Positions 12,388 to 17,500 of a stretch of 40,505 bases of DNA are shown here, in pieces. Location: the NCBI GenBank assembly GCA_028824015.1, contig JAPPFC010000055.1, positions 1-40,505 of the forward strand, written 5' to 3'. This stretch comes from a bacterium (GTDB taxonomy: Bacteria > Actinomycetota > Acidimicrobiia > Spongiisociales > ZC4RG35). The notes beneath the pieces are model-generated. The model did no database searches and was not told where the DNA came from. It saw nothing but the letters and a program-made list of their open reading frames with translations. The translations under genes were made by a program, and so were the position numbers. Each line of letters begins with the position of its first letter. The first letter of the stretch is position 1.

Positions 12388-12756
12388 TCAACGAACCTGC
12401 TTTACCCGACCGGAGGAACCCCATGCCCGGTCCGCAGTGAGGACATCCAAGTCTGTGCGCTCAGCAAGGGCAAGGCAAAGGCGGTCCGCCAGGGACAAGC
12501 CCTCGCCTCGCCGCCAACGCCTGGCGGCCCACTCGGCGTCCTCAGCCAGTACGGGTTCGACGCGGACACCGTAACTGAGCAGGAGGGCGCGGGCCAGAGA
12601 CCACTCCCGTCCACCGGCCATTATTTTCTGCGCCACCTCGGACCAGTTCGCCGCACCGCAGACCGAGTTGTCGACCAGAGCCTGCTCTACCGCCTCGGCC
12701 CCCCTCTCCCCCTGCAGAAACACCAGGATCGCCGACGCATCGAGGACCACGCTCAC
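12388..12756 (-). CDS. vapC: PIN-domain toxin (VapC family)
   Basis: A 122-residue PIN-domain ribonuclease. The acidic metal-binding set is complete: D6 in VVLDASAIL, E40 in NWSEVAQK, D91 in SLADRLCLALA, and D109 in LTADRAW. VapC toxins cut RNA, often initiator tRNA, and are held in check by a cognate antitoxin. Translation starts at GTG 12756, whose last bases overlap the antitoxin stop (GTGA), the standard coupling for such pairs. The 8-oxoguanine deaminase gene begins 3 nt downstream. The paired antitoxin is AbrB-like, as in many VapBC modules. Confidence 0.88.
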   Translation of the reverse strand: MSVVLDASAILVFLQGERGAEAVEQALVDNSVCGAANWSEVAQKIMAGGREWSLARALLLSYGVRVEPVLAEDAEWAARRWRRGEGLSLADRLCLALAERTDLDVLTADRAWGSSGRVKQVR

Positions 12757-13086: not shown

Positions 13087-13641
13087 TTAGCCGTCGGAGA
13101 ACTCCATGGCGGGCAGGCCGTCCAGGCTGAGAGCGTTGTTTTCCCTCTGGTACTCCCACATCGCATCCGGCCCCTTCTTCTCCGCCCATGCGGGGAGGAA
13201 GTCCCGATCAGAGATCATCTCCATCAAGGGCACGCCGCCCCCACAGGAGGTGCCGACCTTCCGCACGTCGACCCTGATAATGGAGCGGGAACCGGGAATC
13301 TCGGGGAAGTTATCGGCCAGGATGGAATGCTCTTCGGTTTCCGGGAAGAGTGCTCTGCCCTTGCCCCAGATCCGCAGGATCCGCCGGGGTTGGTCGAACC
13401 CGCAGAACATGACCACGATTCTCCCGTTCTGACGCAGGTGGGCAATGGTCTCGGCGCCGCTCCCCACCAGGTCCAGGTAGGCAACGGTGTGAGGGTCGAC
13501 GATCCGGAAGGTGTCCAGGCCCTTTGGGGAGAGGTTTATGTGTCCTGAGTCGCCTGACGGAGCAGTCGCGACGAAGAACATCGGCTGAGCCTCTATCCAG
13601 GAAGCCAGGCGCCGGGGGATGCTGTCGTAGTAGGAGGCCAT
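13087..13641 (-). CDS. Pyridoxamine 5'-phosphate oxidase-like flavin/F420-binding protein
   Basis: A 184-residue protein with the split-barrel PNPOx-like fold. Visible pieces are FFVATAPSGDSGHINLSPKG near residues 22-41, then VAYLDLVGSGAETIAHLRQNGRIVVMFCGF and RILRIWGKGRAL. These fit the putative PNPOx family found in many actinobacteria, whose members bind FMN, F420 or haem and act as small reductases. The gene lies 15 bp downstream of cofH, so an F420-linked role is plausible from context, but the cofactor cannot be read from the sequence. The ATG at 13641 follows TAGGAGG-like purine sequence only on the opposite strand; translational coupling with cofH is likely. Confidence 0.75.
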   Translation of the reverse strand: MASYYDSIPRRLASWIEAQPMFFVATAPSGDSGHINLSPKGLDTFRIVDPHTVAYLDLVGSGAETIAHLRQNGRIVVMFCGFDQPRRILRIWGKGRALFPETEEHSILADNFPEIPGSRSIIRVDVRKVGTSCGGGVPLMEMISDRDFLPAWAEKKGPDAMWEYQRENNALSLDGLPAMEFSDG

Positions 13642-13656: not shown

Positions 13657-15531
13657 TCAGGCGGTCAGAAGGAGACCGTACTCGGTGTCCCGCAGGCCTA
13701 CCTGCCGGTTCATGGCGATTATGGCCCTGCGAAAGTCCTCGGGAGTCAACTCCTGGCCATGGGCGGCCCCGGCGGAACGGGTGATTATCTCTCCCATGAG
13801 GGTGCCCCCCAGGTCGTTGCAACCCGCGTCCAGCAACCGTCCGGCACCGTCCAGTCCCAGCTTCACCCAGGACGCCTGGATATTGGGGACCAAGCCGTCA
13901 AGGGCAATCCGTCCGATCGCATGGATTAACACCACCTCATCCCAAGTGGGTCCGGGACGAGCCTTGCCGTTCAGCCAGATGGGCGCGCCCATGTGAACGA
14001 AGGGAAGGGGGACCAACTCGGTGAACCCTCCGGTGCGCGCCTGGATCTGGCGGATCACATCCAGGTGCCTGGCCCAGGATCGGTGATGATCGATGTGCCC
14101 GAACATGATGGTGGCGGTGGCTTTGAGGCCCAGTTCATGGGCGGTCAGCATCACCTGTGCCCACTGGGAGGTCCGGATCTTGTCCGGACACAGATAACGC
14201 CGGACATCGTCGTCCAGAATCTCGGCAGCGGTGCCGGGAAGGGTTCCAAGGCCGGCTTCCTTGAGACGAACCAAGAAGTCCCTCACCGGGACTCCCAGGG
14301 TCTCGGCCCCCTGCCACACCTCAAGGGGGGTGAACCCGTGTATGTGCATCTCCGGCAACTCGGCCTTGATGGCCTCGGTCACCCGCACGTAGAAGTCCCC
14401 CGTGAATTCGGGGTGAATCCCCCCTTGCAGGGTCACCTCGGTGGCTCCCTTCTCCCAGGCCTCCCGAGCCCTTCGCACGATGTCGGCGATGGACATGAGG
14501 TAGGGGTCCCCCCGAAGATTGAGACTACGCGGTCCCTTGGAAAAGGCGCAGAAGCCGCACCTGAAATAGCAGAGATTGGTGTAGTTGATGTTGCGGTTGA
14601 CTACATAGGTGACCAGGTCTCCCACCGTCCTGCGCCGGAGTTGATCGGCGGTCCATGCCACTGCCTCCACCTGGTCCCCCCTCGCTCCGAACAGAGCCTC
14701 CGTCTCGGCCACTTCCGGAGGGCTTCCGGAGAGAGACCGCTCCAGGATGGGACGGAGGCTCCCCGCTCCCTCCAGTTCCTCAGGGCCTGCTTCGCCAACC
14801 CACATCGAGTCGGGCCATGCAGCCGAGAACCTCCGGGGAGGAACCGGCGCGGCCTCGGCGCGGCCGGGCGCCCAGGTGTAACGAGGGCGGGCGGCGCCCG
14901 AGGCGTCCACCTGCTGGAGCCAGGACCTGAAGGCGCTTCGGGAGAGGACCTGGCGGACCTCATCGATCTCCAGGCCCGGAGGCAGGGCGGTCCGCTCCAC
15001 CAACCGGTGGGGAGCCAGTCTTTGACGCAAATCCCCGATCCGATCCGCGTCCCAGTCCCGGAACAGCAGGTCCCCGGCCCCGTCTAGCACGGCAGTCTCG
15101 GCCTGATCCACATCATCTGCGAAGACCGAAACCACGGCCTCGATGGCGGGCAGGGAGCAGAGGGCGGCGGCGGCCTCGACCGTGCTTCGGGTAGCGCGAA
15201 GATAGGTCGCTTCACTGCGGGCCAGGGCATCCAGCACCGCCTCGGACGGGCCCGCGTTCCTGACCGTGATCAGCCAACCGGGAGTATTCGCCTTGGCGAG
15301 CTTCAGCGCCTGGTCGGGGTCAACGATCAACGCAGCCTCCGACGGATCCGCCTGCAGGGCCGAGATGAAAAGGCCTGCCTGGTGAGCGGCCCGAAAGTCG
15401 GTTGCTCCCGGAGAATCCATCTCCAGAGTGGTGGTTCCCTCCCGAAGGCGCGCCTCCGCCACCGCTGCGGTGGCTGCTTCAGCGGGCCTGGTGCGCAGGA
15501 ACGTGATGGTCCGGGAAGTGGCGTTCATCAT
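13657..15531 (-). CDS. cofH: CofH: 5-amino-6-(D-ribitylamino)uracil-tyrosine transferase (F420 synthesis), with long N-terminal extension
   Basis: A 624-residue protein. The C-terminal part (about 255-624) is CofH, the radical SAM enzyme that joins tyrosine to the ribityl-uracil precursor on the way to the deazaflavin FO. The cluster-binding CxxxCxxC is CYFRCGFC at 321-328, preceded by VTYVVNRNINYTN; later motifs are LQGGIHP, HGFTPLEVW, LPGTAAEILDD and TIMFGHIDHH. The first 255 residues are not part of normal CofH (about 370 residues) and resemble no family I can name. They read as alternating hydrophobic strands and helices, perhaps a barrel or Rossmann-like domain. The gene follows cofG by 29 bp and precedes the PNPOx-like gene by 15 bp. 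Start: two consecutive ATGs at 15531 and 15528. Confidence 0.9.
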   Translation of the reverse strand: MMNATSRTITFLRTRPAEAATAAVAEARLREGTTTLEMDSPGATDFRAAHQAGLFISALQADPSEAALIVDPDQALKLAKANTPGWLITVRNAGPSEAVLDALARSEATYLRATRSTVEAAAALCSLPAIEAVVSVFADDVDQAETAVLDGAGDLLFRDWDADRIGDLRQRLAPHRLVERTALPPGLEIDEVRQVLSRSAFRSWLQQVDASGAARPRYTWAPGRAEAAPVPPRRFSAAWPDSMWVGEAGPEELEGAGSLRPILERSLSGSPPEVAETEALFGARGDQVEAVAWTADQLRRRTVGDLVTYVVNRNINYTNLCYFRCGFCAFSKGPRSLNLRGDPYLMSIADIVRRAREAWEKGATEVTLQGGIHPEFTGDFYVRVTEAIKAELPEMHIHGFTPLEVWQGAETLGVPVRDFLVRLKEAGLGTLPGTAAEILDDDVRRYLCPDKIRTSQWAQVMLTAHELGLKATATIMFGHIDHHRSWARHLDVIRQIQARTGGFTELVPLPFVHMGAPIWLNGKARPGPTWDEVVLIHAIGRIALDGLVPNIQASWVKLGLDGAGRLLDAGCNDLGGTLMGEIITRSAGAAHGQELTPEDFRRAIIAMNRQVGLRDTEYGLLLTA

Positions 15532-15560: not shown

Positions 15561-16727
15561 TCACGAAACCACCGAGATGGCCGGACGATCGGCCGGCCCG
15601 GCCTGAGGAGCCCGTGCATAGCCCCTCGAGTCCACAGCCCCCATCACTTTGGGGAACAGGGCCGGATCGACCCATCGTTCGGAGAGGTGGGAAGGGTAGA
15701 TCGGCAGGCGGGGAAGCAACTGGAATCCGGCCGCCTCCGTGCGGCGCCGCAGGGCTTCCAGGTGAGGCCATGGCGCTTCCGGATTCACCCAGTCGATGGT
15801 GAGCGGAGAGACCCCTCCCCAATCGTTGATGCCGGCCTCCAGATACATCTCGTAACGCTCTGTCAGGTTCGGAGGAACCTGGACGTTCATCTCCGGGCCC
15901 ATTATCCAGCGGGCAAGGGCGACCACCCGCATGAACCAGGAAGGAATCGGCTCGGCATTGAGCCGCATGGGAGTGTTGTACTTGGCTCGAAAGTTCTGGA
16001 TGATCACTTCCTGGATGTGACCTCCCGCCTCTGCCAGGTCCCGAAGCGCCAGCAGGGAATCAACGATCTCGGTGGAGTTCTCTCCGATCCCGACCAGAAT
16101 GCCGGTGGTGAAGGGCACCGACAGCCGTGCGGCATCCTCTATAACCCGCACCCGGACCGAGGGAACCTTGTCCGGGCAGTTGTAATGGGGCATTCCCGGT
16201 TCGGTGAGCCGGTCCGAGATGTTCTCCAGCATCAAGCCCATCGAGGGATTGGACGGGCGGAGAGCCTCCATCTGGGTGAACGTCATCACCCCGGGGTTGG
16301 CATGAGGGAAGAGGGAGGTCTCCCGGTTGACCATCTCGGTCATTCGCCGGGTGTACTCCAGGGTGTTCTCGCAGCCCTGGGAATCCAGGAAACGCCGGGC
16401 GGCGGGCCAGCGGTCCTCGGGCCGGTCGCCCAAGGTGAACAGCGCCTCCGTGCATTGGTGCGCCGCTCCGGCCTCCGCCACCGCCAACACCTGCTCGGGG
16501 GGCATGAACATCCCCCCTCCTCCCGGGGGCTGGGCAAAGGTGCAGTAAGTGCAGCTATCGCGGCACAGGGTGGTCAACGGGATGAAGACCTTGCGACTGT
16601 AGGTGACAGTCCGCCCTTTCCCCTCGTCGCGGAGCCGGGCGGCTTCGGTGAGCAGGGGCTGTGGGGATCGCCGACCCTCCAGGTAGGAGAGAGCCAGATC
16701 GCGGTCGAAGGAGGGGTGGGGCGTCAT
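15561..16727 (-). CDS. cofG: CofG: 7,8-didemethyl-8-hydroxy-5-deazariboflavin synthase
   Basis: A 388-residue radical SAM enzyme catalysing the second step of FO (deazaflavin) formation. The cluster motif is CRDSCTYC (C55, C59, C62), and the C-terminal region contains NVQVPPNL and GINDWGGVSPLT, typical of the CofG half of FbiC. The open frame runs up to 17099, but the upstream part only shadows the dehydrogenase gene. The ATG at 16727 overlaps the dehydrogenase stop (ATGA) and begins the conserved protein. In mycobacteria CofG and CofH are fused as FbiC; here they are two adjacent genes. The FbiA, FbiB and FbiD steps must be encoded elsewhere. Confidence 0.93.
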   Translation of the reverse strand: MTPHPSFDRDLALSYLEGRRSPQPLLTEAARLRDEGKGRTVTYSRKVFIPLTTLCRDSCTYCTFAQPPGGGGMFMPPEQVLAVAEAGAAHQCTEALFTLGDRPEDRWPAARRFLDSQGCENTLEYTRRMTEMVNRETSLFPHANPGVMTFTQMEALRPSNPSMGLMLENISDRLTEPGMPHYNCPDKVPSVRVRVIEDAARLSVPFTTGILVGIGENSTEIVDSLLALRDLAEAGGHIQEVIIQNFRAKYNTPMRLNAEPIPSWFMRVVALARWIMGPEMNVQVPPNLTERYEMYLEAGINDWGGVSPLTIDWVNPEAPWPHLEALRRRTEAAGFQLLPRLPIYPSHLSERWVDPALFPKVMGAVDSRGYARAPQAGPADRPAISVVS

Positions 16728-17500
16728 CCCATCCCCGGGGTTGCGCCCAGCACGCCCCCATCCACCGGAAGCGTCACTCCCGTTATCCAGGAGGCATTCT
16801 CCGAACACAGAAACGCGACAGCTCGGGCCACGTCCCGGGGATCTCCGAGCCTTTGCATGGGGTGGAGCCGGGCCGTGCCCATCGGGTCCGACTCCCACAG
16901 CATGGCCGACAACCGGGTCTTGATCACGGCCGGCGCCACCGCGTTGACCCGCACCAGGGGCGCCAGTTCCATGGCAAGCTGGCCGGTCATGTGGATCAGG
17001 GCCGCCTTGGAGATGTTGTAGGCGCCCAGGAAGGGGGCAGGACGAATTCCTCCCACCGAGGCCACATTCACCACGCAACCGCCGTGGGACCCCATCCATT
17101 GCGCCCAGGCCTCCTGGGTCCAGACCAGCGGGGCCCGCTGGTTCACGGCCCAGGTCTTGTCGACTGCGTCCCGAGAAACCTCCATGAGGTTGCCGGCGCC
17201 AGGATTGGTGCCGGCGTTGTTCACCAATATGTCACAGCTCCCGAACCGCTCGATCGTCTCCCGGACCGCTCGGGCGGCGTGGCCGTCATCGTCAGCCCTG
17301 GCCACGGTCGGCAGAACCCTCTCGGAATCTCTCCCTTCCGCCTTCAACCGGGCAACCGCCTCCTCCAGGTTCCCGGGCCGCCGGGAGGTGATCGCCACCC
17401 CGGCCGCCCCCAGATCCAACAACTCGGCGGCGACCGCCAGGCCGATGCCCCTGCTGCCACCGGTGATGACCGCCACCTTGTCCTCGATGCCCCAGCTCAA
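16724..17500 (-). CDS. Short-chain dehydrogenase/reductase (SDR), classical type
   Basis: A 258-residue oxidoreductase with the standard SDR motifs: the cofactor loop TGGSRGIG (about 14-21), NNAG (about 94-97), catalytic Ser in NVASVGG, and the YNISK pair of Tyr and Lys (about 159-163). The C-terminal WITGVTLPVDGG is typical. An Arg after the first strand (SRRPG) suggests NADP preference. The substrate is unknown; many family members act on acyl carriers or alcohols. The start is TTG at 17500, with GGAGG about 10 nt upstream; no better start is near. It overlaps cofG by 4 bp and follows ispG by 38 bp, so it sits between isoprenoid and F420 genes, but a specific role in either pathway is not shown. 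Confidence 0.9.
   Translation of the reverse strand: MSWGIEDKVAVITGGSRGIGLAVAAELLDLGAAGVAITSRRPGNLEEAVARLKAEGRDSERVLPTVARADDDGHAARAVRETIERFGSCDILVNNAGTNPGAGNLMEVSRDAVDKTWAVNQRAPLVWTQEAWAQWMGSHGGCVVNVASVGGIRPAPFLGAYNISKAALIHMTGQLAMELAPLVRVNAVAPAVIKTRLSAMLWESDPMGTARLHPMQRLGDPRDVARAVAFLCSENASWITGVTLPVDGGVLGATPGMG

Follow-up and report, generated by a model that had tools for sequence, protein, structure and literature searches.

What precedes CofH in a 624-residue protein encoded in this window (the whole 40,505-nucleotide stretch of DNA that was analysed), directly beside a separate cofG, and where does it come from? FO synthesis takes a pair of radical-SAM units, which the relevant passages of a review (PMC8498797) describe either as separate CofG and CofH proteins or as the fused FbiC. 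A sequence-only reading of the locus had proposed one unassigned domain of about 255 residues in front of CofH and had offered several roles for it.

The gene and its N-terminal extension

In an NCBIfam profile search, the CofH family TIGR03551 covers residues 276-619 with 466.4 bits against a cut-off of 374.1, while the FbiC family NF006687 stays below its cut-off on the 624-aa protein (513.1 versus 1018), with the match confined to 275-619. The cysteines C321, C325 and C328 of the CxxxCxxC motif (CYFRCGFC) are invariant in 53 aligned rows, and the top structural match of the CofH part is MqnE (6xi9, Z 42.6). The sequence-only reading had CofH begin near residue 255: the existence of an extension before CofH holds, but the exact border lies nearer 262-276, as judged by PRK07360, the match of which starts at residue 262, and by TIGR03551. 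Similarly, what had been taken for one domain of about 255 residues is indeed an unassigned folded domain, but not a single unit: it divides into a barrel and an FbiC-type linker (Table 1). As had been claimed, the extension is not recognisable as CofG: TIGR03550 has no match in residues 1-255, and cofG is a gene of its own upstream (425.2 bits versus a cut-off of 213.35, searched with the longer frame 15561-17099). Nor does it match any other named domain, since residues 1-255 hit no NCBIfam family up to an E-value of 10 and gave only sub-threshold noise in Pfam.

Table 1. Features of the N-domain-CofH locus; positions are those of the window and residues those of the 624-residue protein
Feature	Positions	Strand	Basis and remarks
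Whole N-domain-CofH gene	13657..15531	minus	624 aa + stop; ATG start; ORF reads 15531 -> 13657
Predicted N-terminal barrel domain, residues 7-205	14917..15513	minus	AlphaFold2 model, conservation, fold matches; without radical-SAM Cys motif
FbiC-type linker, residues 206-262, motif D..G.AR...W.PG...P	14746..14916	minus	Profile match to FbiC CofG-CofH linker
CofH radical-SAM domain, residues 263-624, CYFRCGFC at 321-328	13660..14745	minus	TIGR03551 above cut-off
Separate cofG, 388 aa	15561..16727	minus	TIGR03550; 29 bases upstream of N-domain-CofH start

Further upstream, an SDR-like frame (16724-17500; family named by eye) overlaps the start of cofG at 16727 by 4 bases, and the two genes may be translationally coupled. 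On its downstream side the N-domain-CofH gene is directly followed by a gene for a PPOX-type flavin-binding protein (13087-13641; PF01243, 35.6 bits), and a short ORF near the operon (12388-12756) resembles, by eye, a PIN-domain (VapC-like) toxin.

The extension is under purifying selection. In 15 pairs formed by six same-genus sequences, dN/dS is 0.10-0.21 for residues 1-205, 0.06-0.31 for residues 206-272 and 0.02-0.08 for the CofH part. Relatives outside the genus are 42-54% identical to the window protein in the N-domain versus 71-80% in CofH (19 of the 25 rows; the locus comparison caught 25 of 30 loci). The full protein is present in 48 of 60 relatives. Reading frame and start position are kept in relatives at 40-90% identity, and the N-domain is kept in a further family of the class, f12, at 18-24% identity. 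A true translation start near residue 250, with the frame upstream of it open by chance, has practically no probability left: a wrong start is excluded because dN/dS is low over residues 1-205, the start site is shared and homologues in the order retain the extension.

Conservation within the N-domain differs between lineages. Seven columns (R105, S135, D154, W160, L168, E179 and R180, in window-protein numbering) are invariant across 24 rows from three lineages, that is, the window's order, f12 and family f69 of another class. The order and f12 have in common a near-invariant core of LRDW, ER and EGT, and both show little or no variation at R15, P16, R158 and D159, which does not hold for f69; the N-domain of the f69 loci (L207-L210, L298 and L299) lacks several residues that are invariant in the window's order.

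A predicted barrel and its fold matches

The AlphaFold2 model of the N-domain, built on 62 aligned rows, is a compact alpha/beta barrel with a mean pLDDT of 87.2, in line with the earlier expectation of a folded domain. Per ten-residue block, pLDDT is 92-98 over residues 11-210. Nine strands are predicted (8-16, 35-38, 55-58, 67-70, 88-91, 110-113, 133-138, 154-157 and 176-179), most of them separated by helices, and residues 7-205 are with high confidence predicted to form a small beta/alpha barrel. The tail after residue 210 has block values of 46-76 in the isolated model; in the model of the whole protein, which was built on 53 rows and has a pTM of 0.92, they rise to 85-97. Since it is poorly defined alone and well defined in the presence of CofH, the linker behaves in the models as if it packs on CofH.

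Compared with solved barrels, the isolated barrel reaches Z 9.5-11.0 among the matches listed, rows within 1 Z being counted as tied. DAHP synthase and HisF score Z 10-11; MqnE (6XI9), a relative of CofG and CofH, scores Z 9.8-9.9 over 184-185 aligned residues, the longest alignment among the matches listed. A C..C..C cluster of the radical-SAM type is absent from the N-domain in all 84 sequences, and searches of N-domain profiles against PDB chains gave no usable sequence match.

Several candidate identities were set aside. The designed TIM barrel sTIM11 reached E 0.0033 among PDB sequences but was rejected, as no single stretch passes. A viral fold library returned generic barrels only, the best being a luciferase-like phage protein at E 1.4e-3, and Foldseek against the PDB likewise gave generic barrels, with TM-scores mostly 0.3-0.45 by query length. 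Duplication of nothing but a CofG tail is an insufficient account of the extension given the barrel model.

Linker, gene neighbourhood, distribution and trees

By profile comparison, the linker is FbiC-derived: residues 203-272 match the FbiC linker (44-row alignment) with a score of 30.9 and prob 88.8, and 0 of 150 column shuffles do as well, the shuffle maximum being 15.3. The barrel alone (residues 7-205) gives prob 0.2 against all CofGs, with 90/150 shuffles as good; against FbiC CofGs only, 5/150 shuffles are as good, and C-terminal pieces of the barrel against CofG give 14/150 and 17/150. HisF, HisA and DAHP synthase profiles score like CofG against the barrel. With the linker left intact and the CofG part shuffled by column, real CofG exceeds 99/100 and 69/70 controls; with the CofG part rotated instead, it exceeds 89/92 and 80/80. 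In the linker-anchored register, read by eye from the alignment, conserved CofG residues stand opposite G151, D154, L168-R169 and R180, and the motifs GAxD, LR and ER(T) pair with GIxD, LR and xR(L) of CofG. On account of the linker match and the linker-anchored controls we see, in addition to the FbiC linker, moderate support at the sequence level for descent of the C-terminal part of the barrel from CofG.

By motif, a same-strand CofG precedes N-domain-CofH in 66 of 88 N-domain loci; its distance to the start of N-CofH, which is known approximately, is about -65 to +96 bases. Sixteen of the other 22 were tested by tblastn, and CofG lies directly upstream in 16/16 at 62-68% identity; the remaining six of the 88 are cut off upstream and stand outside the count. 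An adjacent upstream cofG is therefore present in 82/82 checkable loci.

Among 296 genomes of the class, the N-domain profile matches 119. The window's order accounts for 80 and f12, a family with genomes of about 1 Mb and N-domain-CofH frames mostly of 612-633 residues, for 39. Within the order, 80 of the 81 genomes with a CofH match carry the N-domain, and in the lone exception (G294) the CofH frame runs to the contig end. No further family of the class produced a match with this profile; their fetched loci held 17 frames of FbiC length (754-1239 residues) and, in two genomes, a shorter CofH frame. These two loci (L294 and L295, from G064 and G069 of families f13 and f15) have CofH frames of 439-447 aa with the motif at residue 126-134, an N-terminal extension different from and shorter than the barrel type, and a separate CofG nearby; they seem to represent a further split arrangement that lacks the barrel.

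The sequence-only reading had also proposed a search for the same fusion across Actinomycetota, and it turned up in the window's order, f12 and f69: with a wider profile, 12 of 396 genomes in the phylum sample match, six from the window's order and six from f69. A pattern scan of 84,980 species returned 68 loci. Most have Acidimicrobiia, Actinomycetota or simply 'bacterium' in their titles; in a few the title names Acidobacteria or Armatimonadetes. The CofH motif is in the same frame in 63 of the 68 and in a variant form in L087, and four loci (L079, L084, L085 and L096) run to the end of the available DNA. Across the class sample, the phylum sample and the pattern scan, no N-domain was found free-standing or fused to another partner. 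One of the 68 loci, L088, comes from MAG UBA5794; a passage of PMC12008989 describes UBA5794 as the sister order of Ca. Actinomarinales, and according to a passage of PMC7771536 Actinomarinales carry the F420 pathway. Its genome size and kinship lead us to infer that f12 is Actinomarinales (Actinomarina-like).

The CofH tree was computed from 60 thinned rows of an enlarged set in which six members of the wider family served as outgroup; it supersedes an earlier tree of 60/127 rows rooted on one branch of 6.58. Its 21 N-domain rows form one clade (100/100) within a larger, starred group (100/98), the other 19 rows of which are all FbiC; further FbiC rows branch outside this group, with the caveat that the outgroup joins a long FbiC branch. 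The f69 CofHs cluster together (98/92) and sit among the CofHs from the order and from f12; this placement suggests that f69 obtained its N-domain-CofH by lateral transfer. In the CofG tree (57/111 rows), the free CofGs of the order and f12 fall outside the FbiC of the class and are not sister to it; AU tests reject neither their grouping with the class's FbiC (p 0.29) nor the union of the CofGs of all three N-domain lineages (p 0.45). The trees exclude L105, L106, any sequence no longer than 300 residues, the CofG of L103 (a run of X) and incompletely caught loci, among them L185, L186, L194, L195, L284 and L292.

Possible origins and comparison with known FO synthases

The explanation we put first, and to which we give an even chance, is that the protein is a former FbiC, the CofG half of which lost its FeS cysteines and shrank to about 200 residues, so that a free CofG does the chemistry and the barrel serves as scaffold or dock. 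The ancestor would have been the Actinomycetota CofG-CofH fusion FbiC. Redundant beside a second CofG, its CofG half would have lost the iron-sulphur cysteines and the catalytic loops and ended as the barrel of about 200 residues, still on the FbiC linker. The C-terminal half would still work as CofH (tyrosine-derived radical plus uracil precursor of FO), and the separate CofG encoded immediately upstream would complete FO. The models suggest that the barrel packs on CofH via the linker and may stabilise it, possibly also providing a surface for CofG. The barrel persists under selection, even in the f12 genomes of about 1 Mb, which points to a structural role; going by the models, it may be a scaffold that holds the linker and CofH, and perhaps also a dock for CofG.

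This explanation is supported by the linker match, the linker-anchored CofG controls and register, the CofH clade, the adjacent cofG, the fold match to MqnE, the retention of the domain in the small f12 genomes and the pTM of the full-length model. It is opposed by the CofG tree, which does not make the free CofGs sister to the class's FbiC, although the AU tests do not reject that grouping, and descent of the barrel from CofG is opposed by the lack of CofG similarity in the barrel alone and by DAHP synthase and HisF, which tie with MqnE or slightly exceed it. The degenerate barrel that the sequence-only reading listed as one option thus gains support from the AlphaFold2 barrel, with linker and trees pointing to the CofG half of FbiC; a putative docking domain for CofG, another of its options, is compatible with the results.

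The main rival, which we regard as rather unlikely, is domain replacement. In this view a small barrel without kinship to CofG moved into its position before the linker and has a ligand to bind or a reaction of FO supply to catalyse, such as handling the uracil precursor or the CofH product. The N-domain may also be a putative substrate-binding module, as had been proposed. Direct profile comparison does find the barrel sequence unrelated to CofG, and R15, S135, R158, D159, W160, E179 and R180 are invariant or nearly so in 62 rows of the order and 18 of f12, several of them at strand ends. However, f69 has the domain without preserving R15, R158 and D159 as a set, just the seven columns named above show no variation over the 24 rows, copies that stand free or have another fusion partner did not turn up, and joining the CofG part to the linker lifts the profile score above nearly all controls.

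A more specific version of descent from FbiC, which we consider improbable, casts the barrel as a pseudoenzyme derived from CofG, bound to the active CofG in a three-barrel complex that would hand the CofH product over directly. Quite improbable, finally, is a passive relic: the CofG half would have decayed, would do nothing by itself and would persist only since its removal would destabilise CofH. The barrel does evolve faster than CofH, both in dN/dS and in identity to the window protein outside the genus, but its dN/dS is far below 1 and the core common to the order and f12 is nearly invariant.

Searches of the open-licence literature listed no description of a barrel-CofH domain, and N-domain-CofH would give a well-known enzyme pair a new arrangement: barrel-CofH plus free CofG, a third beside the separate CofG/CofH and the FbiC described in passages of PMC8498797. 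This third layout probably includes the marine Actinomarinales, in which genomes of about 1 Mb still pay for the extra domain.

Like FbiC (NF006687), the protein has a C-terminal CofH half, a homologous linker and a predicted barrel in the CofG position; unlike FbiC, it lacks the CofG catalytic motif, its barrel measures about 200 residues versus about 340, and CofG comes from a separate gene. With stand-alone CofH (TIGR03551) it shares the catalytic domain, the Cys motif and a score above the cut-off but differs in the N-terminal barrel, the FbiC linker and the tree position inside FbiC. The N-domain resembles CofG (TIGR03550) in preceding the linker and in its matching C-terminal register when linker-anchored, whereas residues 1-255 have neither a TIGR03550 match nor a Cys cluster and the barrel alone has no detectable similarity. 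MqnE (6XI9) and other radical-SAM barrels are matched by the isolated N-domain at Z 9.9 and by the CofH part at Z 42.6, but generic barrels match the N-domain equally well. According to passages of the F420 review (PMC8498797), no structure was known at its date, and the two FbiC domains appear to act independently, with the intermediate diffusing freely between them, in contrast to the direct hand-over proposed for a three-barrel complex. If the barrel is a dead CofG, these lineages offer a natural experiment on whether contact of the radical-SAM units matters for FO synthesis.
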